From a virus: DNA of 47,198 nucleotides. The notes beneath the pieces are model-generated. The model was not told the DNA's origin. It made no database searches and saw only the letters and a list, made by a program, of their open reading frames with translations. Made by a program: the position numbers and the translations under genes. Positions 2,299-29,878 of this stretch are shown one piece after another; the stretch's first letter is position 1; each line of letters starts with the position of its first letter. Where the stretch lies: the IMG/VR virus record IMGVR_UViG_3300031673_000096, positions 1-47,198 of that record; one strand, written 5' to 3'.

Positions 2299-3222
2299 TC
2301 AAAAATATTTCCATCGTTTCAGCAACTCGACAGTATTCTCACAATCCAAATCTTCGATCCGGCTTATCGCATTATAACCGACCCGGATTTGCCCGGCGGT
2401 CGCTTTTGCCGAGTCTAAAAGTGCGGCGATATTCGAGTCCTTGCCCGTAACATGGACCACACCGGCGCCGAAGTAGCCGATCCAGTCGTGGGAAGGCTGC
2501 AGCTTTGGCATTTCGCCTGTTGACATGGCGGCAATCATATCGCCCCATCCATCCAGAACTTCCGCCATTGCGTAGATGGCCGGATACCGCAGGCCGGTCT
2601 CGAATCCGTAGAAATAGGGCAGTCCGTCTTCTTTGCCTATGACGGTCCTGACGCACAGCGGCCCGCAGAATTTATTGGTCTCTAAAAACGGCGCCATCTT
2701 GTGCAGTGTATGGCGGTAAATAGTCGCCGTAGTCTCGATATCCCGCCTTCGCTTCGGCGGCCAGAACCACCCGATGACACTGCCGTTTCTCTCGATAGTG
2801 GAAAAAAGGCTGTTGGGAACGAGCTGGCCCATTACATACCAGGCCTGGAGACAGACTGCCGAGCCCTCTACTTCCTCATCGTCGGCCGGCATCTTGAATT
2901 GATACAGCCTGGCTATTTTAAGGCCGAACTCCCGATCGAATTGCAGGACATCGTTGAACGTACCGGCACCCCAGACATTCTTTATCCCAACAGCCGCCTT
3001 GCCGGATCCCGGCGAATCGAAGATAACAATGGTCTCATCATCGAGACCTTCATGCCAGTCGGCAACTTGAGACATTCCGCATATTGGATTTTTCCATGTT
3101 AGAAAAGGCGGTATAGTATCCGGCAGCCAGAAATCAACATAAAATCCCTCTTCGGCTATCCGTAGTGCTAAAGCCAATCCTTCACCTGATTTTGAGATTA
3201 TTCTGAATTTAGGCATTGACAT
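2299..3222 (-). CDS. phage protein with PurD-like (ATP-grasp-like) appearance, tentative
   Basis: 307 residues. The N-terminus (KFRIISKSGEGLALALRIAE) reads as a strand, a glycine-containing turn and a helix, like the Rossmann-type first domain of phosphoribosylamine-glycine ligase (PurD). Later segments with IGYFGAGV and a strand-rich C-terminus would fit the rest of such a fold, but the ATP-grasp residues cannot be verified by eye. Enzymes and decayed relatives of this type occur in phage genomes. The start at 3222 has GGAGAG upstream and overlaps the -35 box of the plus-strand promoter at 3216-3243. It lies between the giant virion gene and the lysis-like genes. Confidence 0.5.
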   Translation of the reverse strand: MSMPKFRIISKSGEGLALALRIAEEGFYVDFWLPDTIPPFLTWKNPICGMSQVADWHEGLDDETIVIFDSPGSGKAAVGIKNVWGAGTFNDVLQFDREFGLKIARLYQFKMPADDEEVEGSAVCLQAWYVMGQLVPNSLFSTIERNGSVIGWFWPPKRRRDIETTATIYRHTLHKMAPFLETNKFCGPLCVRTVIGKEDGLPYFYGFETGLRYPAIYAMAEVLDGWGDMIAAMSTGEMPKLQPSHDWIGYFGAGVVHVTGKDSNIAALLDSAKATAGQIRVGYNAISRIEDLDCENTVELLKRWKYF

Positions 3223-3283
3223 TGACCCCGACTCTCCTATAATAAAGCGAGCCGATAGGAAGTATTGTGCTTCCGACCGGCTC
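3216..3283 (+). promoter_or_regulatory. orphan promoter-hairpin element (third copy, no HNH gene)
   Basis: TTGACA (3216-3221), a 16-base spacer and TATAAT (3238-3243) form a perfect sigma70-type promoter on the plus strand. Five bases later an RNA hairpin begins: outer stem GAGCCG (3249-3254) with CGGCTC (3278-3283), and inner stem GGAAG with CTTCC. The same arrangement, with the same 16-base spacer and the same trailing TCTAA, precedes the two HNH genes at 17822 and 29286. Here no HNH gene follows: the transcript would run antisense into the giant gene. It looks like the remains of a lost or failed insertion, or an independent antisense RNA. Confidence 0.7.
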
Positions 3284-3341
3284 TAAACATAGACGTCCAG
3301 AGCATTTTCTTGATGTAATTCCTGTTTGCGTAAAATGTCAT
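3237..3341 (-). CDS. possible 34-residue peptide
   Basis: An ATG at 3341 with AGGA eight bases upstream opens a 34-codon frame (MTFYANRNYIKKMLWTSMFR at the start) ending in a TAG that overlaps the ribosome site of the next gene. It would fill the gap between the giant gene and the PurD-like gene. Most of it is antisense to the orphan promoter-hairpin, which could explain the open frame by chance, so support is weak. Confidence 0.2.
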   Translation of the reverse strand: MTFYANRNYIKKMLWTSMFRAGRKHNTSYRLALL

Positions 3342-3363
3342 CAAAATATTCCTGAAAAACAAC

Positions 3364-6300
3364 CTATTTCGTCTTCCTTCCCAATGCCATTTGGTCAATT
3401 ATAAGATTCGTTCCCGGCTTAGCTCTCGGCGTTAGGCTCATCCTGCGGTTTATCGCATTATTTATGTACCTGTCCAGGAGCAATCCTTCCGTCTTTATAT
3501 TATACTTCTTAACGTACTCATTCCACTTGGCGACCTCTTCCGGTTTGGCATCTTCCTGGGCGATTTGGTACGCCTTGTTCTGGAGTTTCTTTTTTATTAC
3601 TCCTTCGGCAATCTTCTTTTCCGTCTTATTCGCCTTGGTATTGACATCTAACAACTTATAGACATCCATGCCCTCGAAGAGGTCCTTAATACCATCGGCA
3701 CTTAGCGGCTTTTTCGATTGCTTGACGACCATTGCCATTTGCATATAAACGTGTTTACGGCCTTTCTCATCTTTGACTGTTTGAAGTTGTTTCCACAAAG
3801 ACGACAATTCCGTTCGCGCCTTATTGCGACCTTTCCTTTCAACCATTTCCGGAATGGAAGCTTTATCCGACTGGTATTTTCTATCCAGCACATCGGTGCG
3901 TTCGTAAAATCTCTGCAAGGACTGTTTCGGGGCGTAAGATTCGCGCATGAACAAAGTGCCGAGTACCGGCCAGTCGCTCAGTGTGATTTCCTTTTTGCTC
4001 GCCAGGTCAAAACTTCTGCTTACCCGGCTGTATAAACCCCCGGAATAACTATTTACCAGATATTCAAGTTTGGCGGGAGAATATCCTATCGTCTTTCCGA
4101 TCAGCTTCATCAACCTGCTCGTATAGATTTTGTACTGGTCCTCCGGCATCATCCCTTCGACGCTTGCGGGGACAATCGGCCGGCCGGCAAAGTCTCTATT
4201 GGCTATAACGTCAGCAATGGGACCCGCTACGGCCGGCCAGTCGGAGGGATTGGCCTGTCTAAGAGATTCGGATAGCATTTCCGTAACAAGTTTCGGGTCT
4301 TTGCGGTACTTCGCATCAAGGGCCGCTACCGGGGCCGACTGGAAGATATGGCCTAACTCGAATGGTACGGGAAGCCTGATAATCGTATCCGTGCCCGGTA
4401 TTCTGAAATGCAGGTAGCCGTTGCGCTCATAGGGCGGCATTTCCTTGTACCATTCTTCATCCTTTGAACGCCACCAAAGCCATATCGCCGGGATCGTCAG
4501 GGAGGCTATTGCCTTGAGCAATGTTGCCCCCGGTCGCTCTTTTAATGTTCGCAGTATCTTGTCCGGCCCCTGGATGGCGGCGTTGAAGAAAGGAATAGTC
4601 TGATTGAGAACCTTTCCTATCTGGCCGTGCCTGCTGAAATTGGTCGTCACATCCTGGGCCGCATTTAGTGCGTAGAGAGAGGCTGCCACGCTACCCTTGC
4701 CGTATTTCTCTTCGGCCGCTCTCAGGGCAGGTATGAATTCTCCGATTCTCGTTCCCGCCTCGGTGACGCCAAACAGTTCTCGCAAAGCGTCAACGGGATG
4801 TGCGACGGTATAGACCACCTTGCCCTTTATGGTAGATACAAGTATTTCCTTTTCAAGATGCTGCAGGGCCCGTCTGTCTGCAAGTATCTGGGCCGACATT
4901 TTACCGCCGAGGGCCTTGAACTTCTGGGCGCCGGGTGTCCTGAAAACGTCCGCCGCTATCCCGCCAACGGCTGAGAGCGGTCCGGCCTTTGCGTGTTTCG
5001 ATAAGACGGTAAAGGTCATGGCGTCCCGAGCGAAGTTTCTAATTAGGCCGAAAGGCGCGTTAAGTCCGGTAGCTCCGAGCCGCAATGCCCTTGTCGGCTT
5101 ACCTAAGGTAAAGTTCCAAAATTTCGGGAGCGTGTACAGATCGAGTCCCTGGATTGCCCGGTACAGGTTCGGTTCGACCTCGTAAAACTGACGCTTGCCG
5201 TCAATGACGAACGAAACGATATTGTCCTTGCCGTAGTATTGAGAGGCGTTACTGTAAACAGTCAGGATTTCATCCCAGTGTTCGAGCATTGCTGACGATA
5301 TCTCGTCCGGGTCAAGGCCCATTCGTTCGTATGCGATACGGGCTATTTCCTTCTTCAACTGCTCGGCCTCGAACTGAGTAGCCTGCGTGGGTGCAGGCAC
5401 TTTCCATATCATCCCGCCCGTACCTTTTTTATCCGCGAGCCTGGCTAAAGCAACCGCCACTTCGGTCTTATGGGCAACGCCGATAATCTTCGCCGCCTGC
5501 TGTATCATGGATTCGAACGGGTCGATGACAGCCCTGCCTGAACCCTTTCTTTTCTTAACGGCCTTGGCTGTTCCTGCTACCCCCTTACCTGCTCCCTTGC
5601 CAACATTCAACTCACCTTCAAGAAATTCTCTCATAAATGGAATATAGATCGGATTCGCCGCTTCGATAATAGCCCTGGTCTTCTTCTCCATCCCGCCGGC
5701 TTCTACGAGATAATCGAGCAGCCGATGATTCCATTCGGTAATTTCCTTGAGCGTTTCCTGCCATTGCGGATTGTCGTATTTCTCATAAGTGTAATTCGCA
5801 TCCTCGCCACTTATTCCGGGATTGAGTCCTTTTTTGTGATATATTCTTGCCTGTGCCGCTACTATCCATCGCGTGAAGGCTTTAATATCCTTGGCGACCG
5901 GCTTGACGATTTCTTTTAGCCCCTTGCCCGTTCTATTGCCTGCCAGATCGGTTGTGTAATTTTCTACGAAGAACCGGGCAATAGCACCGGCCTTATCCGC
6001 CCGGCCGACGGCTATCTGATACGGGTCCAAGTCCGCCCTCATTTCTCCTTCTTTAATACCCGACCGCCCCATTGCCCTGCGAATCGGCTCCAGTTCACTA
6101 CGGAACGCCCTTTCAGCCCACAGGCTTGATCGCTTGATCCGCTCGAACATAGTGCCTTTTGCCGGCTTCCTGCTAATCTGCGATTCTATCCGGGCCTCCG
6201 CGCCCTGCAGGCGCCAATTGGTAATCATCTTCTTTGTGATATTGAGCTTTTTGTCAATGTCACGATGGTCCGGAAGATAATCTTCGGCGAACCACTTGGA

Positions 6301-17821: not shown

Positions 17822-17889
17822 TTGAAAGGTATTTGGAAATGTGTATAATAAGCGAGCCGCAAACGGAGATTAGGCTCCGAAAACGGCTC
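17822..17889 (+). promoter_or_regulatory. promoter and structured 5' leader of HNH gene 1
   Basis: TTGAAA (17822-17827), 16 bases, TATAAT (17844-17849). Four bases later a 36-base hairpin begins: outer stem CGAGCCG... with CGGCTC (17854-17889) and inner stem CGGAG/CTCCG. It is followed by TCTAACC and, after a gap, CTATTAAGGAG, the ribosome site of the HNH gene. The outer stem and the 16-base spacer are the same as in the copies at 3216 and 29286, whereas the inner stem differs on both sides, so pairing rather than sequence is conserved. Confidence 0.8.
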
Positions 17890-17919
17890 TAACCGCAACC
17901 AACTATTAAGGAGTTGATT

Positions 17920-18489
17920 ATGGCTGAAACAATCGTAACAAAAACATGCCGGGTTTGTAAAGAAACAAAACCAATCTCGGAGTTTTATACAGACCGAACA
18001 CACAAAGATGGCTATAAAAATATTTGCAAAAGTTGCCGTTTGCAACAATGTAAACAATATAGAAAAACCAAAGAATATAAAGATGCTCAAAAGCGATATA
18101 ATAAAAGTGAAAAAGGCAAGGCCAGAAAGAAATGGTACGACAAAAGCGAAGAAGGTAAGGCCACAAGGAAGCGGTATCGCCAAAGCGAAAAAAGCAAAAT
18201 TTCTTTTCAAAGATATCGATTTCTTCGATCTGAGTATGTTAAAGCTAAGAATGCGGTTAATAATGCAATCAGGGTTGGAAAAATTAAGCTTGTGAATCAG
18301 TGTCAATGTCAATATTGCGAAAATACAGCTCAGATATATCATCACAATCTCGGTTATGATCCCGATCATTGGTTGGATGTTATTCCCGTGTGTCGCCCAT
18401 GCCATTACATTCTTCATAATTACACTCCGAGGTTCGCACCATCAACAGGGACCATGCCTTTCTCGATGCCGCCCAATTCAAGTGATTGA
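17920..18489 (+). CDS. HNH homing-type endonuclease, inserted on the opposite strand
   Basis: 189 residues from the ATG at 17920 (AAGGAG upstream). The N-terminus has a zinc-binding region (CRVCKETKPISEFY...CKSC), the middle is a lysine-rich repetitive linker with YxKSEKGKA-like units, and the C-terminal HNH core reads CQYCENTAQIYHHNLGYDPDHW...VCRPCHYILH (cysteine pairs plus HH and H). Free-standing HNH endonucleases cut DNA lacking their gene and spread by repair. The gene sits between tail fibre and adaptor, against the direction of the operon. Its last 70 bases overlap the adaptor gene antisense, so its C-terminal tail is adaptor sequence read backwards. Confidence 0.85.
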   Translation: MAETIVTKTCRVCKETKPISEFYTDRTHKDGYKNICKSCRLQQCKQYRKTKEYKDAQKRYNKSEKGKARKKWYDKSEEGKATRKRYRQSEKSKISFQRYRFLRSEYVKAKNAVNNAIRVGKIKLVNQCQCQYCENTAQIYHHNLGYDPDHWLDVIPVCRPCHYILHNYTPRFAPSTGTMPFSMPPNSSD

Positions 18490-19142: not shown

Positions 19143-19158
19143 TTTCTTCATACTCCAT

Positions 19159-19195
19159 AAAAAAAACCCCACACATGGCTTTGCCACGCATGGGG
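19159..19195 (-). terminator. intrinsic terminator between adhesin and adaptor
   Basis: On the minus strand a 13-pair stem (CCCCATGCGTGGC with GCCATGTGTGGGG, G-U pairs included) with a three-base AAA loop is followed by eight T residues (19166-19159). The run of T ends just before the ribosome site of the adaptor gene. It would reduce adaptor transcript relative to the upstream adhesin unless another promoter lies between. Confidence 0.8.
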
Positions 19196-19240
19196 CTCTC
19201 TTTCAAGGTATCCCAATCTCTCTATTGACTTTTTACTTAC

Positions 19241-22200
19241 TTATACTTTCGACCAAACAGCCGAACTTACTTCACCGGTCTTGCTCCATTCACAATCGCT
19301 CGCATCCGACACCGGCGTCCATTCGGCTGAGCTGCCTTCGGTCGGGGGTTGCCAGTCGGGCAATCGCACGCAGGCGACTGCATCGGCCAGACCAATGATA
19401 TCGGACACGGCAACGACAAAGGCAACACCTGGTTGAACGATATCGACCACATCGGTCAGGAGCAGAGAATCGAAAACATCCACATTAAAAACCGTCAATA
19501 AAACAGTCTGCTCGTCAATGACGGTAAGGGTATCGTAGACCGAGACTTCATAGACGGCAAACTGCTGTTCGATTGATTCCGAAAGCGATATCGTATCGTA
19601 CACATTGACCGAGAGCTCGCTCGCTTCCACAAGAGTAACATCGGCAGCGTCGTTCAGACCAAGCGAATCGGAAACGAATATTTCCAGTACTGGAACTTCG
19701 AGGCCGGTAACATCCATAACGCCTACCGAATCGGAGGCCAATACCTCAAGGACCGGCAGTTGTATCGTCGTTTCATCAGTCACGCCAACAGAATCGAATA
19801 CGCAGACTTCATAGACGGCGATCTGTGTAGTTGTAACATCCGATACGCCAATCGAATCAAAGACTGATACTTCAAGAGCCGGGATCTGGGCCGTCGTTTC
19901 ATCAGTGAGGCCAATATCATCGTAAGCAGATATCTCATAGACGGCGATCTGAACATCCGCTTCATCGCTTACTCCAATATTATCGGCAACCGACAGTTCG
20001 TAGAAATTCAACATGCCGGCCGTGGCTTCCGTCACCTGAACATTGTCATAAACATAAATGTTCAATACGGCTGCATCCTGGCGGATCGCCGTGGCGCCGT
20101 CCGTGAGCCCTATGATGTCGCCGACAGCAATTTCCAGTAACGGATAGAAAGTATCGACCGCATCGGTCAGACCAATGGTATCGTAGACTGAGACTTCCAG
20201 AACGGGCAATTCGACTACGATCTCGTCTGCCAGCCCTATACTGTCAGATACGAAAACTTCTAATACAGAGATGGATATTTCGACGGCATCCGTGAGGCCA
20301 ACTAAATCCGATACCGACACTTCCAGGGCTGGAATCTGAACAGCGTCCTCATCGCTAAGTCCTATAGCATCGGCAACGGAAACTTCTAAAACTGCAATTT
20401 CAACAGCAACATCATCACTCAACCCTATTCCGTCAGTAACCAAGGCCTCGTACAGAGACAAAGCTGCATCAACTGCCTCCGAAAACCCAATACTATCGCT
20501 AACAGAAATCTCTAATACCGGTATCTCGTTAGCGACATCATCAGTTAAACCTATCGAATCAAACACGGATACTTCCAGGACCGGTATTTCAACAGCGGTT
20601 TCATCAGCCAAACTGATACTGTCAGTGACCGAAACCTCATATAAATCCAGGGCCAAATCAACCGCATCGGCCAAGCCAATATCGTCTGAAACGAATATTT
20701 CCAGCACCGGGATTGATATATTCACATCATCCGTGAGTGAGATTTCGTCAAAAACCAAAACCTCTATTGTTGGCACAAGCAGAGTTACTTCATCAGTTAG
20801 CCCAATATCATCTGAGACTGAGACTTCAAGAATTGGAATCGAGGCGGAAGCTTCTTCGGAGGCGCCAATATTGTCAAAGACGTTTATAAATAGAGAGCTT
20901 CCAGCAACAACCTCAACATTGACAAAATCTGTTACGCCAACAGAGTCAACCCCAGACGCAAAATGTATTCCTATATTTGTATTAACTGTCCATCCCAGAC
21001 CTTCTAATGTTGCTTTATCAGTTTCGCCACCTGCTGATGGAGCAGCATTATTACCCGCCAAATCCAGCGTATTGAATGCCCCATCGACGCCACTATCCAC
21101 AATATCGGAAAGGATGTTATCGACTTGTGACTCTGTCAAAGAACAGTCATCCATGTCGACTCCGTCTATGCTTGCTGTTAGGTCAGCGAATGCACCAGAG
21201 GTCGTATCGTAATCAAACGAAGTATTATTTGCCGTGAGAAAATCAAGTAAAGGCGGCCACGTCCACTGTGAAATATCACCAGAAAGAGAAGTGTTATAGC
21301 ATTTGAAATCCACTAAACCAGTTGAATGCGTCCATCCAGATATATCTCCTGTAACAGAAGTGTTTTGCAGGTATAAATCGTAGAGAGTATTAGGAAATGT
21401 CCAACCAGAAATATTGCCAGAAACCGATGTGTCAGCGAGGCTAAGAATTTCCAGAATGGTATTAAATGTCCAACCAGAAATATCGCCAGAAACGGATGTG
21501 TTATGAATGGACAGAGTATCTAACGCAACAGGAAATGTCCAACCAGAAATATCACCAGAAACGGATGTGTTGTAAGCATAAAAGAGTTCTAAACTACTCG
21601 GTAACGTCCAACTTCCAATATTACCAGATACCGATGTGCTTTCTACTCTAAAGGTCTGAACGCTGTTCGGAAGTGACCAACCAGAAATATCGCCGGAAAC
21701 GGATGTGGTTGCAAGATTTATAATGCTTAACCCAGTTGGCATTGTCCAACCGCTGATATCACCTGAAACATTAGTGTTTTGTAAAGAAAAATAAGTTAAA
21801 TCATCTGGCAATTCCCATGACGCAACGCTTCCATACACATCATCGTTATATAAATTTATATAAGTTATAGAATCATAATCACTGCAAACATATTCAATTT
21901 TGTCGTCAGTGGATACAGATATGCTCCCTGCCACTCCAGATGTTAAACTGCTGTCGTAGGCATCGTTAATCCAAACCTCTACCGTACCGGAGGGAAAATT
22001 AAATTGTGGAGTTATGGTCGTGTCGGATGAAGCATAGACGGTCAATACGACGGCTGCATCCTGGCGGATCGCCGTACAGCCGTCTGTGAGTCCTATGATG
22101 TCGCCGACAGCAATTTCCAGTAACGGATAGAAAGTATCGACCGCATCGGACAGGCCAATTGTATCGGAAACTGAGACTTCAAGAGGCGGCGGCGTCTCAT

Positions 22201-24735: not shown

Positions 24736-25026
24736 TTACTTTTTCTTCGGTTTGGCCTTCGGTTCTTGTTTATCCGGCTCATCCGGCACTACCCCCGGCT
24801 CTTCTCGATGCACGGCAAGCAGATGCTCCTTGAACAACTCGGGAGTCTGCCTGACCGCGCCGCACAATTTGCAGGTCAATCCCGTTTCCTTGACGGGCGG
24901 TACCGGGGCTTTCGCCGACACATCAACCTCTTCACCGGAACTCGGATCGTAATAAACACCATCCTGTTTCCAGAGGGTTCCGCTCTTTGAGCCGGCGATA
25001 TCGTAAGGTCTACTTTTGTCTAACAT
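24736..25026 (-). CDS. small protein with a classical C2H2 zinc finger
   Basis: 96 residues. The central motif CKLCGAVRQTPELFKEHLLAVH (given as C-x2-C-x12-H-x4-H, residues about 52-73) fits the C2H2 finger spacing, including a leucine at the hydrophobic core position. The N-terminus contains WKQDGVYYDPSSGEEVDV, and the C-terminus is proline-, glutamate- and lysine-rich. CAGGAG lies upstream, and its 5' end overlaps the end of the methyltransferase-GT9 gene. C2H2 fingers are rare in phages; DNA or protein binding is possible. Confidence 0.65.
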   Translation of the reverse strand: MLDKSRPYDIAGSKSGTLWKQDGVYYDPSSGEEVDVSAKAPVPPVKETGLTCKLCGAVRQTPELFKEHLLAVHREEPGVVPDEPDKQEPKAKPKKK

Positions 25027-26626
25027 TTTTCCATCTCCTGTAATATTTTTCGATTGCTTCGACTATTCTTTCAGGCTTGAGGGCTTCCATGCACTTTGCA
25101 CCATCGTGCCTTACGTTTAATGGGATAATATTGCCGTCCACAGTCTTAATCTGGGCCTTTGATACGAGGCATTCGCCGTCGTAAATCAGCCTGTGACACG
25201 GCTGGCAGTTAACCGGCGCGGACAATGCCGTGCAGTTCTTCCAGTATTTTGTCAGGTTCTCCGGCGATGAATGACTGAGAAAGACGATCTTGGGAGTATC
25301 GTAGCAGCTTGCAGCGTTGAGCACCCCCGTCTCCGGACCTACAACAAGGTCACAATATTTCGTCATCAGCATGGACTGGCGAATGGTCCAGGCGCCGGAT
25401 TTGTTGAGAGTGTTCTGATGTTTCCACGACTCCAGGATCTTGCACATCTCATCGCCGACCGTAACGATAACAATGTCCGGATGCTTCTGATGGATTGTGC
25501 CGGCCACGATGTGGGTCCAGGGATAGCATTTATGCAAACTCGAACCCGACAGCGACCAGAGAATCATAAACTTGTCTTCATTCTGCTGACGGATAATCCG
25601 GGCAAGCGATTCTTCCATATCGGTAAAATGCAGTTCCGGTAATTGGCCCTTCATATCGGGATAACCGGCGGCATCCATAGTCCTGTCCATATAATTGATA
25701 TTGCAAAGCTCGTTACGCTTTTTGTGAGAAAGATGATATTCGGCAGTGCCCTGTCGAACCAGCAGCGTTTTTTCCACGCTTTCGCAGAGATTGACGACAC
25801 GGTCGAATCCTTTGCCGATTTCCTCCCAGTACGGACCCAGCTCGGCGTTTGGAACAACGTCACGCTCCTGCAGCATGAACTCGTCTATCCAGGGACATTC
25901 CCTTAATACTTCGGCCGAGTAAGGAGTGCAATTATAAGTGATCCTAAAGCCATCGGACTTGAGTTGTCTCAAAACCGCCGTTGCCCAGACGGCATCGCCT
26001 AAAGCACCATAGCGAATAACCAGGCAAGTTTTTCCAGCCTTTTTACGGGGGAACGCCACGAAACCGTTATTGGATTTCAATGGCTCGGTCATGCAAGCCG
26101 GAAGAATGCGCCTGAGCATACCGACACGCTTTCTTACAATGATTTGGAAGCTGTATTCGTTGCTCGAATTATGTTCCGTGGCTGAAATCAGTTTGAAGTT
26201 GCCGAACTTCTTGAGAATAGCCCAAATATCGCGCCACTCAAAATCTTGTTGATGATTTGGATTCGCCCCGGCCGTTCCGACATTGGGATAAAACTTTCTA
26301 TCGGGAAGATACAGGATTAGGTATCCACCCGACTTAATCACGCGACACCACTCCCGTAGGATCGGTTCAGTACATTTGAAATCCTCGAGGCAGTGCGATG
26401 AAAAGACGTAATCGAAAACGCCATCTGAAAATATACCGAGTGCATTATCTGCCGACAGGTCCAACTTGATATCGGCCGCCGAGCCAGCAATGTCTATCCC
26501 CGTAGCTTCATCGCAGACCTTCTCATTCCCGCAACCAATGTCCAACCCTGTTCCCCGCAGATAACTTGCTACCCTGTATCTGCACTTCTGGGCCTCGTAA
26601 CCCTGCGATAATTGCGAATTCCACAT
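25010..26626 (-). CDS. methyltransferase-GT9 glycosyltransferase fusion
   Basis: 538 residues. The N-terminal methyltransferase covers about 1-170 (motif I GLDIGCGNEK at 27-36; acidic GIDIAG; SSHCLEDF). The C-terminal two thirds form a GT9 heptosyltransferase-type GT-B enzyme: the N-terminal loop RYGALGDAVWATAVLR sits near 205-220, and the C-terminal donor-side segments are MILWSLSGSS, CDLVVGPETGVLNAAS and IVFLSHSS. GT9 enzymes normally add heptose or related sugars to lipopolysaccharide. The methyltransferase could methylate the sugar. AAGGATAAC lies upstream of the ATG. The fusion inside a virion gene cluster is unusual. Confidence 0.75.
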   Translation of the reverse strand: MWNSQLSQGYEAQKCRYRVASYLRGTGLDIGCGNEKVCDEATGIDIAGSAADIKLDLSADNALGIFSDGVFDYVFSSHCLEDFKCTEPILREWCRVIKSGGYLILYLPDRKFYPNVGTAGANPNHQQDFEWRDIWAILKKFGNFKLISATEHNSSNEYSFQIIVRKRVGMLRRILPACMTEPLKSNNGFVAFPRKKAGKTCLVIRYGALGDAVWATAVLRQLKSDGFRITYNCTPYSAEVLRECPWIDEFMLQERDVVPNAELGPYWEEIGKGFDRVVNLCESVEKTLLVRQGTAEYHLSHKKRNELCNINYMDRTMDAAGYPDMKGQLPELHFTDMEESLARIIRQQNEDKFMILWSLSGSSLHKCYPWTHIVAGTIHQKHPDIVIVTVGDEMCKILESWKHQNTLNKSGAWTIRQSMLMTKYCDLVVGPETGVLNAASCYDTPKIVFLSHSSPENLTKYWKNCTALSAPVNCQPCHRLIYDGECLVSKAQIKTVDGNIIPLNVRHDGAKCMEALKPERIVEAIEKYYRRWKNVRQK

Positions 26627-26629
26627 CTG

Positions 26630-27418
26630 TTATCCTTTCGTCTTTACTCTTAATCCTGCAATTTGACTGCATTGACTGCGTATGTGTTCGATATGAGGTT
26701 TCAGATCTTCGGCGCTCGAGTCTACTTTCGGATGGCTGAGTGTCTGAAACAGCTCCCCGGTAATCCATTTGCGGGCGTAATAATCCATATCGAGAATCTT
26801 TCGTGCGCATATTTCATTCGAACCGTGCACTTTAGATACCCCGCCTTCGTGAACTCCCCGGGCCCTGACAATATTCCAGATTTGAAAACCACGCGATCTT
26901 GCCGTAAAGCAATAATCGCTGTCACTGCCGACAAGCTGCATATTCTCATCGAGCAGGCCTATCTCTCTCAGCATGGCCGTTCGCATAATCCAGCAGCAGG
27001 CACTGGCCCATCGCACCTGTGCGTTATCGCGGAAAACAGCCAAGGACCCAATTGCGGCAGTACCCAACGGGTAAGTACCCACCCCGCCGGCACATATAAC
27101 TTCATCGGGATTGACCTGAGATAATTGAAGAGGCATTCCGATTCCGCAGTCCGGCATACCGTCCATAAACTTCACCATCTCCTCGACGGCCCCTGCCTCC
27201 AGGTACATATCCTGATTGAGAATGATAATATACGGTTCCTGCGGATCGCTTTTTAAGAATGCCCGCAACCCGACGTTGACGGCCCGCGTGAAATAGATAT
27301 TCTCATCGGTATTATCGTGGATATAAACTTTGACATGAACCGTCTGTTTGCGTAAATGCTCAAGGCATTTGTCGAGCTGCTCTCTGTTTTTGAAGAATGG
27401 GATTACCACTGGAATCAT
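26630..27418 (-). CDS. GT2-family glycosyltransferase
   Basis: 262 residues from the ATG at 27418. The classic GT2 start IPVVIPFFKNREQLDKCLEH leads to the metal-binding motif LNQD (about 67-70), and later segments WIMRTAMLREIGLLDENM and GSDSDYCFTARSRGF match the acceptor-side region. A basic-acidic C-terminal helix (HPKVDSSAEDLKPHIEHI) follows. It starts four bases into the end of the GT17-methyltransferase gene, so the two are coupled. Likely adds a hexose-type sugar to a virion or host acceptor; the specificity is not readable. Confidence 0.8.
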   Translation of the reverse strand: MIPVVIPFFKNREQLDKCLEHLRKQTVHVKVYIHDNTDENIYFTRAVNVGLRAFLKSDPQEPYIIILNQDMYLEAGAVEEMVKFMDGMPDCGIGMPLQLSQVNPDEVICAGGVGTYPLGTAAIGSLAVFRDNAQVRWASACCWIMRTAMLREIGLLDENMQLVGSDSDYCFTARSRGFQIWNIVRARGVHEGGVSKVHGSNEICARKILDMDYYARKWITGELFQTLSHPKVDSSAEDLKPHIEHIRSQCSQIAGLRVKTKG

Positions 27419-28749
27419 CTTCTGCACGGCTCCCGCAAGTTCAGTAGTTCTCGCCTGTTTTCTTCCAAAAACTCGTAAGTTGGAATTATCTCTTTAGTAA
27501 ACAACTCCTGAGAGGTTTTTTCTATAACCCCAACCCCGTAATCGACATCGAAAACATACATGCCCAGGTCCGGCCTCGATGCCCTCAGCTCCGCCCAGGC
27601 CTTCCAGACATCGCCGCACCAAAGACCCTTCCTGACGTTGACAGGGCATTGAAGCCCTTCCGACGTCGGGTTGCAGTCGTGGACTACGATAAATCCGTTT
27701 TCCGTTATGAGATTAAGCGCGTTATTTATATCTCTCAAAGCCTGTTCGGCCGTATGCAGGCCATCGACAAAAATCAGGTCGAACTTTTCACCCCTGTAAC
27801 TCTCGAAGAAGTCGTCAGAAGTCATTCTGTATTTGCAATCCTCATTCGGGTCGACACCCGTCTTGTAATCGCAATTTATCTTATTGAAATTCGTTGCGGC
27901 ATTGTCTACGCCGATTTCCAGGTACCGGGACAGGTGATGTTTGCTGATTAGGTCATTGATAATATCCGTCCTCAACACGCAATAATCACCTAAGTGCGCG
28001 GAATATTTCCCAGGATTATCTCTGATACATTTCGGCAGTTCGGACAAACCTGTGAAACTGAACTCATAACCGGGCCGGCCGAACAGGTCGATACCCTCGC
28101 TTCTGCATTTCTCGATATTCTCTATGTTCGTATATTCCGGCCTGTCGCATTCCGTATGAGAGAAAGCGCAGAGTTTTTCCGCTATCCTTTCCGCACTCAT
28201 CAAGTAGGCAAAATGCCACCCGGCATTAGGTAATATTAGCCGATCTTCTTTGCCCTGCCGTAATTGCCGGGCCGATTCGTAGTCTTTGTAACGGCAGAAA
28301 GCAGGCCATATCCAATCCCTCTTTTGGCGGCAGTTAAGCCAGTAATAATAGTTGCGCATACTCAGCCTGCCGGGTAAATTGGTCATTTTTATAATCGGCA
28401 TGACATCGGCACTGACGATCTCATCGGCGTCGGTAAGGATAATTGTATCGTCGGGAAGGCATACGGTTTTCAAATAATCGTCGATAGATTCCCTCTGTCC
28501 CCATTCATTGGCCCAGGCATCCGTAGCGTGATATGCGGTATGTTGAGAGATAATATGAACGATTCTGTCTTTGTGCTTCCTGTATCGCTCGCTGTTTTCG
28601 CAGAAATACAGGGGCTTTGGCTTGCCGGTATAAGTCCTGTCGGATTCGACCAGAACGAATTTATCGACAAGGCCGGACAGCTCTTCCAGGCGAATATCCA
28701 GAAGGTCGAACTCGTCATAAAACATAAAAGTATTGTAAATTAAGCCCAT
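27415..28749 (-). CDS. GT17-type glycosyltransferase fused to a methyltransferase
   Basis: 444 residues from the ATG at 28749 (AGGAATAAAC before it); an upstream frame to 28809 has no ribosome site. The N-terminal domain has the GT17 pattern (IYNTFMFYDEFDLLDIRLEE, then VLVESDRTYTGKPKPLYF and TDADEI at 106-111). GT17 enzymes are known as N-acetylglucosaminyltransferases in eukaryotes and occur in some bacteria and phages. The C-terminal part is a class I methyltransferase (SRYLEIGVDNAA near 274-285, FDLIFVDGLHTAEQA, FIVVHDCNP). Probably transfers and modifies a sugar in the same complex. First gene of the glycan cassette after the virion gene at 28828. Confidence 0.75.
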   Translation of the reverse strand: MGLIYNTFMFYDEFDLLDIRLEELSGLVDKFVLVESDRTYTGKPKPLYFCENSERYRKHKDRIVHIISQHTAYHATDAWANEWGQRESIDDYLKTVCLPDDTIILTDADEIVSADVMPIIKMTNLPGRLSMRNYYYWLNCRQKRDWIWPAFCRYKDYESARQLRQGKEDRLILPNAGWHFAYLMSAERIAEKLCAFSHTECDRPEYTNIENIEKCRSEGIDLFGRPGYEFSFTGLSELPKCIRDNPGKYSAHLGDYCVLRTDIINDLISKHHLSRYLEIGVDNAATNFNKINCDYKTGVDPNEDCKYRMTSDDFFESYRGEKFDLIFVDGLHTAEQALRDINNALNLITENGFIVVHDCNPTSEGLQCPVNVRKGLWCGDVWKAWAELRASRPDLGMYVFDVDYGVGVIEKTSQELFTKEIIPTYEFLEENRRELLNLREPCRR

Positions 28750-28772
28750 GTTTATTCCTATAAAACATCCGT

Positions 28773-28799
28773 GCGGGAGAGACAACGCATCCCTCCCGC
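28773..28799 (-). other. hairpin before the glycan cassette
   Basis: A perfect seven-pair stem (GCGGGAG / CTCCCGC, loop of 13) lies between the stop of the decoration-like gene and the start of the GT17 gene. On the minus strand it is followed by ACGGATGTTTTAT, too weak a T tract to call a terminator. It may attenuate or protect the transcript. Confidence 0.4.
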
Positions 28800-28827
28800 C
28801 GAATGCCAAGACGAAAGGACTATTCTG

Positions 28828-29285: not shown

Positions 29286-29353
29286 TTGACTTGTTGATTT
29301 GAGGTGATACAATAGAATGAGCCACAGATGAGGTTATGACTCACCTGCGGCTC
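29286..29353 (+). promoter_or_regulatory. promoter and structured 5' leader of HNH gene 2
   Basis: TTGACT (29286-29291), 16 bases, TACAAT (29308-29313). Five bases later the hairpin starts: outer stem GAGCC (29319-29323) with GGCTC, then CAG/CTG and inner TGAG/CTCA with single A-C mismatches. It ends CGGCTC (29348-29353) followed by TCTAAACA and CTATTAAGGAG. The inner stem differs from the other two copies but still pairs. Confidence 0.8.
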
Positions 29354-29383
29354 TAAACACGACAATCTATTAAGGAGATCGCC

Positions 29384-29878
29384 ATGTCTGAGACAATTCA
29401 AACAAAACGATGCACAAGATGCAAGGAAGTTAAATCCCTTACGGAATTTTACCGAGACAAGATCAAACTTGATGGCCATAGCAGCCAGTGTAAAATTTGC
29501 AATATCAATCGAATCAAGGTATCCCGCCAAACGGAACGAGGTAGGATTATGTCCTGTAAAGTCTCGCTTCATTACCGGCAAAAACACCCCGAAAGACATA
29601 AAACCTCCCAGAAACACTATCGCCATACTGAAAAAGGCAGAACTTTCGGTCGAGTCTCCAACCTTCTCATAAGACTCTTCCATCCGGAAAAATGGAAGGC
29701 AAGAAGAGCCGTCCAACATGCCGTTCAAGCTGGCAAAATAGTTCCTGTTCATACTCTCAACTGCCAGAATTGCCAGCAAAAGGCACAGGAATACCATCAT
29801 ACTAACGGCTATGAGCCGGTGTTTTGGTTTATTGTCATTCCTCTTTGTAAACAATGTCACCGCCTTGTTCATAAGTAG
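29384..29878 (+). CDS. HNH homing-type endonuclease, inserted next to the capsid gene
   Basis: 164 residues starting MSETIQTKRCTRCKEVKSLT. The N-terminal cysteine pairs (CTRCKE...CKICN), a basic linker with RHTEKGR-like units, and the HNH core (CQNCQQKAQEYHHTNGYEPVFW...PLCKQCHRLVHK) are the same architecture as the protein at 17920, but only moderately similar in sequence. It ends five bases before the stop of the convergent capsid gene, so it fits the gap exactly. Sequence and leader place both genes in one mobile family. Confidence 0.85.
   Translation: MSETIQTKRCTRCKEVKSLTEFYRDKIKLDGHSSQCKICNINRIKVSRQTERGRIMSCKVSLHYRQKHPERHKTSQKHYRHTEKGRTFGRVSNLLIRLFHPEKWKARRAVQHAVQAGKIVPVHTLNCQNCQQKAQEYHHTNGYEPVFWFIVIPLCKQCHRLVHK

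Follow-up and report, generated by a model that had tools for sequence, protein, structure and literature searches.

The two HNH endonuclease genes of the stretch of DNA analysed here, a virus record of 47,198 nucleotides (hereafter the window), very probably each carry over their start a SymR-type antisense RNA gene encoded in cis, the predicted product of which is read from the opposite strand. This reading draws on the strand on which the structure evolved, the position of a reverse promoter, base-pair covariation, homology to SymR, the layout of the genes and the spread of the element over unrelated genes. SymR has been known as a single small family of enterobacteria, linked to one toxin; the RNA family is known, and its partner genes are new and diverse.

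Elements and genes in the window

The 47-kb window belongs to a tailed phage whose structural genes (head, connector and tail families) are located on the minus strand, and HNH genes 1 and 2, on the plus strand, are inserted against flanking minus-strand genes. A DNA methyltransferase-like gene (phrog_27561; 27415-28809, minus strand) lies close to structural genes. The string GAGCC-N-GGCTCTAA occurs exactly three times in the window (3249, 17854 and 29319), against a chance expectation of 0.01, and the three sites are referred to as copy 1 (about 3216-3283, decayed, with an HNH remnant behind it), copy 2 (HNH gene 1) and copy 3 (HNH gene 2). The features are as follows:

3216-3243, plus strand: sense promoter of decayed copy 1 (TTGACA-16-TATAAT)
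3249-3283, minus strand: terminator hairpin of decayed copy 1 (covariance model match 3235-3337, E 2.8e-5, outside the seed)
3297-3404, plus strand: C-terminal remnant of a third HNH gene, of which only ...PEHFLDVIPVCVKCHQNIPEKQPISSSFPMPFGQL and the stop are left
17822-17849, plus strand: sense promoter of HNH gene 1 (TTGAAA-16-TATAAT); read on the minus strand, it provides the T-rich stretch that follows the antisense terminator
17850-17925, minus strand: predicted SymR-type antisense RNA 1, about 75 nt, its 5' end placed close to 17925 on the model of the annotated SymR
17854-17889, minus strand: SL2, terminator hairpin of predicted antisense RNA 1, identical with the 5' hairpin of the initial annotation
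17891-17925, minus strand: SL1, 5' hairpin of predicted antisense RNA 1, in which AGCC (17925-17922) closes with GGUU (17894-17891); anti-Shine-Dalgarno in the loop
17920-18489, plus strand: HNH endonuclease gene 1, 189 aa, phrog_2340
17932-17940, minus strand: putative antisense extended -10, TGT TACGAT (sense ATCGTAACA), within HNH gene 1
29286-29313, plus strand: sense promoter of HNH gene 2 (TTGACT-16-TACAAT)
29315-29389, minus strand: predicted SymR-type antisense RNA 2 (MFE -39.6, z -8.5)
29319-29353, minus strand: SL2, terminator hairpin of predicted antisense RNA 2, with 14 uninterrupted pairs on the minus strand and two A-C mismatches on the plus strand
29355-29389, minus strand: SL1 of predicted antisense RNA 2, the closing helix of which, AGAC/GUUU, differs from AGCC/GGUU by a double compensatory change
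29384-29878, plus strand: HNH endonuclease gene 2, 164 aa, phrog_2340
29396-29404, minus strand: putative antisense extended -10 (weak), TGT TTGAAT, within HNH gene 2

All three copies have a promoter of the form TTGAnn-16 nt-TAnAAT followed after 4-5 nt by a hairpin, exactly as the initial annotation had described, and its observation that the inner stems differ while pairing is kept (GGAAG/CTTCC, CGGAG/CTCCG, TGAG/CTCA) was borne out; the pairing of the hairpin is complete only on the minus strand. Decayed copy 1 (3216-3404) retains the promoter and the hairpin but has lost by deletion the start codon, the reverse promoter and the greater part of the HNH gene. Covariance model R1 matches antisense RNAs 1 and 2 at 17841-17951 and 29305-29415, respectively, both sequences belonging to its seed, which matches its own model by construction. 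A further match at 19151-19248 was dropped, as its sequence looks like a common terminator and no gene starts after it.

Strand of the structure, closing helix and reverse promoter

If selection acts on the RNA pairing of one strand, that strand tolerates G-U pairs, which are seen as A-C on the other. The stem arms of 117-119 non-redundant copies were aligned in a strand-neutral manner; the copies come from bacteria and from other viruses and were obtained by pattern searches with some columns fixed. On the sense strand, flanked A-C combinations outnumber G-U 109 to 21 in SL2 (p 1.6e-15) and 71 to 2 in SL1, a hairpin outside the initial annotation (p 6e-19), while in low-scoring control sequences the figures are 67 and 51 (p 0.17). 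Since A-C on the sense strand corresponds to G-U on the antisense strand, and this holds for both hairpins, the structure evolved on the minus strand. The minimum free energy is lower for the antisense than for the sense strand in 115 of 117 copies (mean -32.6 vs -23.5), and the spacer forming SL1 is more structured than its shuffled versions. The minus strand of copy 3 forms two long hairpins of 13 and 14 uninterrupted pairs (antisense -39.6, z -8.5; sense -22.2, z -2.8); for copy 2 the values are -32.3 on the antisense and -24.0 on the sense strand.

SL1 is shut at its base by a closing helix. RNAalifold paired AGCC, with which the antisense RNA begins, with GGUU before the terminator in 117 of 117 sequences, so that this helix links the bases that follow SL2 on the plus strand to codon 2. 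When the base X of CTAA[X]C was compared with the first base of codon 2 by a pattern leaving both free (sets with forced CTAAC/GCT columns were left out), C was matched by G in 105 of 106 copies, A by T in 8 of 10, G by C in 6 of 6 and T by A in 10 of 11. A pattern with codon 2 free and any base except C after CTAA gave 30 stretches, and among copies departing from C-G at this helix the antisense strand folds better in 28 of 28; on the sense strand the same helix contains an A-C mismatch. Copy 2 (C-G), copy 3 (A-T) and E. coli symE (T-A) all obey the rule. Over the whole structure of 21 pairs, 91.5% are paired as compared with 69.1% after shuffling, and the covariation is 0.560 vs 0.145 for shuffled and at most 0.119 for slid versions, with 15 pairs changed on both sides.

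A second conserved block, ATGGCTGAnnnnATTCTA, is present within the gene and corresponds to a reverse-strand -10 (TAGAAT), and ATGGCTGAnnnnATTCTAnC stands at a fixed distance behind the hairpin in most copies. The distance from the first G of GGCT to ATTCTA is 10 or 11 nt; because these two registers represent two reading frames, the block does not reflect a protein constraint. Its minus-strand variants (TACGAT, TATAAT, TAAAAT, TATGAT) vary as -10 boxes do. In a set of 96 copies found without use of the second block, an antisense TAnnnT stands at offset 10/11 from GGCT in 63, and at any other offset in 0-5. In L129, L164 and L206 the start codon is displaced and the position of GGCT is unchanged, and GGCT is therefore a nucleic-acid signal. 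The antisense -35 is weak, as is the -10 of copy 3 (TTGAAT), and other letters interrupt the run of T that follows the terminator (GCTTATTATA).

The initial annotation had proposed a functional covarying RNA tied to a mobile endonuclease gene, which stands, and had taken it for a 5' hairpin of the HNH mRNA evolved on the sense strand, which does not, since only on the minus strand are the stems complete and tolerant of G-U. As an mRNA structure the hairpin would stabilise the transcript or time its translation. It is indeed located at the expected transcript start after a sigma70-like promoter, a weaker fold is also present on the sense strand, and precedents exist in T4, in which translation of homing endonucleases (I-TevI, segB, mobE) is held back by hairpins sequestering the ribosome-binding site (PMC2988022). 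The passages of that review consulted here name hairpins, promoter choice and autorepression. The restraint is there exerted by intramolecular mRNA structure and promoter choice, in contrast to what is proposed for the window, and these passages describe no antisense repressor RNA. With A-C mismatches on the sense strand where the antisense strand has G-U, in both hairpins, with the antisense strand folding better in 115/117 copies and with a reverse -10 fixed inside the open reading frame, the sense-strand reading was rejected and is considered very improbable, although a side effect of the hairpin on the stability of the sense mRNA is possible.

Kinship with SymR and proposed action

Every part of the element is in place in E. 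coli symE/symR: the annotated 5' end of SymR is the A of AGUCAU, which faces codon 2, the -10 of SymR is TAGAAT, its own closing helix is AGUC/GAUU and it folds into the same two hairpins. As in symE/SymR (RF01809), with its reverse -10 CATTCTA in the open reading frame, the RNA start lies opposite codon 2, two hairpins are formed, and the Shine-Dalgarno sequence and the start codon are covered. The predicted RNAs of the window correspond to an RNA of about 77 nt with two hairpins, the second at the 3' end; they lie opposite the 5' leader, Shine-Dalgarno sequence and start codon of the target, and the putative -10 falls within the target reading frame, as judged by position (TAnnnT, 63/96). 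Homology to SymR is detectable. Model R2, the seed of which contained no SymE-linked copy, found E. coli symR at E 1.1e-7 and seven SymE loci at E 2.7e-8 to 1.8e-10, and for this reason the phage elements and SymR are regarded as one family. The Rfam symR model, RF01809, matched one SymE locus, L231, on the antisense strand, with 44.1 bits and so short of its gathering cut-off of 61, and gave no match in the window and none in the phage copies; this model covers a small part of the SymR-type family. Unlike symE/SymR, the targets in the window are HNH proteins (phrog_2340) and not the AbrB-fold SymE, and the LexA box CTG-N10-CAG, present at symE, is absent from the three window promoters.

In the proposed mechanism, a minus-strand promoter in the first HNH codons would give rise to an RNA of about 75 nt starting at codon 2, composed of two hairpins and terminating at SL2 and the T-rich tract that follows, the reverse complement of the sense -10. 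Such an RNA would be complementary to the endonuclease mRNA over its entire 5' leader, Shine-Dalgarno sequence and start codon and would display the anti-Shine-Dalgarno in the loop of SL1; by pairing with the mRNA it would, by analogy with SymR, keep the ribosome from the Shine-Dalgarno sequence and start codon, and a presumably harmful endonuclease would be made only when sense transcripts exceed the antisense RNA. Transcriptional interference may contribute, the reverse promoter facing the sense promoter, and read-through from the operon, against whose direction the genes are inserted, would supply extra antisense RNA. Control of endonuclease translation by the element, as suggested in the initial annotation, is probable, with the strand corrected in view of the minus-strand -10 inside the HNH gene and the match of the whole element to SymR. 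In E. coli a silent change of CATTCT to CACTCC (two changes) abolishes SymR (Kawano et al. 2007, PMC1891008), and SymE is repressed by SymR also in trans (PMC1891008). SymR repression is independent of RNase III and Hfq there, and consequently downstream decay steps cannot be assumed for the element.

Among other systems, RalR/RalA of the Rac prophage consists of a DNase, a phage-type nuclease, restrained by a small antisense RNA. Window proteins P0001 and P0002 both weakly match the Lar-like family phrog_5558. Reverse promoters within the gene, together with antisense RNA, hold back the EcoRI endonuclease (PMC3874152), but EcoRI is a restriction enzyme and not of the homing type, and no two-hairpin RNA of the SymR type is described for it (PMC3874152). 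Among the open-access papers searched, none describes homing-type endonucleases as controlled by antisense RNA; as subscription papers lay outside this search, such absence is not proof.

If the proposed reading is true, antisense silencing would be a general way for mobile nucleases to persist quietly in genomes, the origin of symE/symR would be hinted at, a covariance model would find mobile nucleases of unknown families, and the shut-off of a free-standing homing endonuclease inserted against an operon would become directly testable. More tentatively, the hairpins may diversify so that copies sharing a genome, or brought together by co-infecting phages, avoid silencing each other, in which case the portable cassette of unrelated selfish nucleases would embody an RNA-based incompatibility like that of plasmid antisense RNAs, a possibility that is regarded as rather doubtful.

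Spread, target genes and presumed mobility

A loose pattern scan of IMG/VR yielded dozens of clear copies amid many matches, most of them due to chance, and tighter scans yielded abundant matches. The element is also carried by bacterial genomes (10 of 100 in one order), Acidovorax and Eoetvoesiella genomes (L383, L384) among the carriers, and confinement to this phage, named in the initial annotation as grounds for abandoning its proposal, was not observed. The outer stem varies too (GAAACC/GGCTTC, GGGCC/GGCCC). Among 106 downstream proteins the families represented, with overlapping counts, were HNH_3 (25), HNH (14), HNH_5 (13), AP2 (10) and NUMOD3 (6), and more rarely GIY-YIG (3), endonuclease VII (3), SymE (3), integrase (1) and others; 104 of the 106 fell into 20 single-linkage clusters at E 1e-5. 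Many hits lie upstream of HNH genes, a point raised in the initial annotation, but the element is not restricted to them and also precedes other gene families. One target, behind the element at L164 9044-9152, is a TnpB (OrfB_IS605 and Cas12f1-like TNB), in which GGCT is kept and the start codon lies further upstream. Similar-looking genes follow the element at L206 10013-10121 and L129 9637-9746.

Small proteins with no Pfam match or left unscanned, some with apparent signal peptides, stand behind the element in Sphingomonadales, Methylobacterium and others (L161, L375, L429, L346, L367), including targets in Alphaproteobacteria. A cluster of 13 small cysteine-rich phage proteins (MAVVNSKDGCSSCIYF...; L309, L216, L246, L284 and relatives), the representative of which matched no Pfam family, is likewise found behind it, as are a tyrosine integrase and an SNF2-type helicase (L315, L314). 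Two or three copies per contig are present in L501 and L502, the latter, of 4.8 kb, having three element-bearing HNH genes.

A compact conserved RNA tied to nucleases, TnpB included, might also be a cofactor or guide resembling omega-RNA, in which case the minus-strand RNA would be real and would not act as an antisense repressor. This is very hard to reconcile with the same fold standing before HNH, GIY-YIG, SymE, integrase-like and small unknown proteins, with an RNA that always spans the Shine-Dalgarno sequence and start codon and has an anti-Shine-Dalgarno in its loop, and with SymR being a repressor (PMC1891008). A DNA inverted repeat serving as operator or as binding or homing site of the endonuclease, for which its place next to the promoter and the autorepression by I-TevI in the part of the T4 literature consulted might speak, is scarcely credible, as the stem sequence differs in each copy and is common to unrelated protein families, and a duplex repeat predicts neither the A-C/G-U strand bias nor the helix between leader and codon 2; this reading, as well as a recombination site and a resemblance to a tRNA D-arm, was dropped for want of support.

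The element was also recovered independently of its motif. Thirty relatives of the HNH proteins were collected on protein grounds only. The element is present in 13 of them, in each case precisely at the start codon, and it is therefore not an artefact of the motif search; these 13 include L462, the window's own phage, which like L005 is 100% identical to the window and hence not independent. The remaining 17 of the 30 lack the element, which means that the nuclease family does not need it. A protein search of IMG/VR with P0001 alone found nothing. The named phage collection contained no DNA relative of the window, with a weak match only at a GIY-YIG gene of Gordonia phage ODay, and the four named-phage relatives of phrog_2340 that were examined, whose genes run in operon direction, have no element. 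Nearly all the element-bearing relatives found by protein run against adjoining long open frames. In a related phage (L060) the site of copy 2 is empty, and in the same related phage (L464, 278-2565) the homologue of window gene 25010-26626, intact in the window, is interrupted by an HNH gene that carries the element. The window and the L060/L464 phage thus have reciprocal empty and occupied sites, a pattern of occupied and empty alleles in related phages such as free-standing homing endonucleases show, and these sequences suggest that the genes may be mobile by homing.
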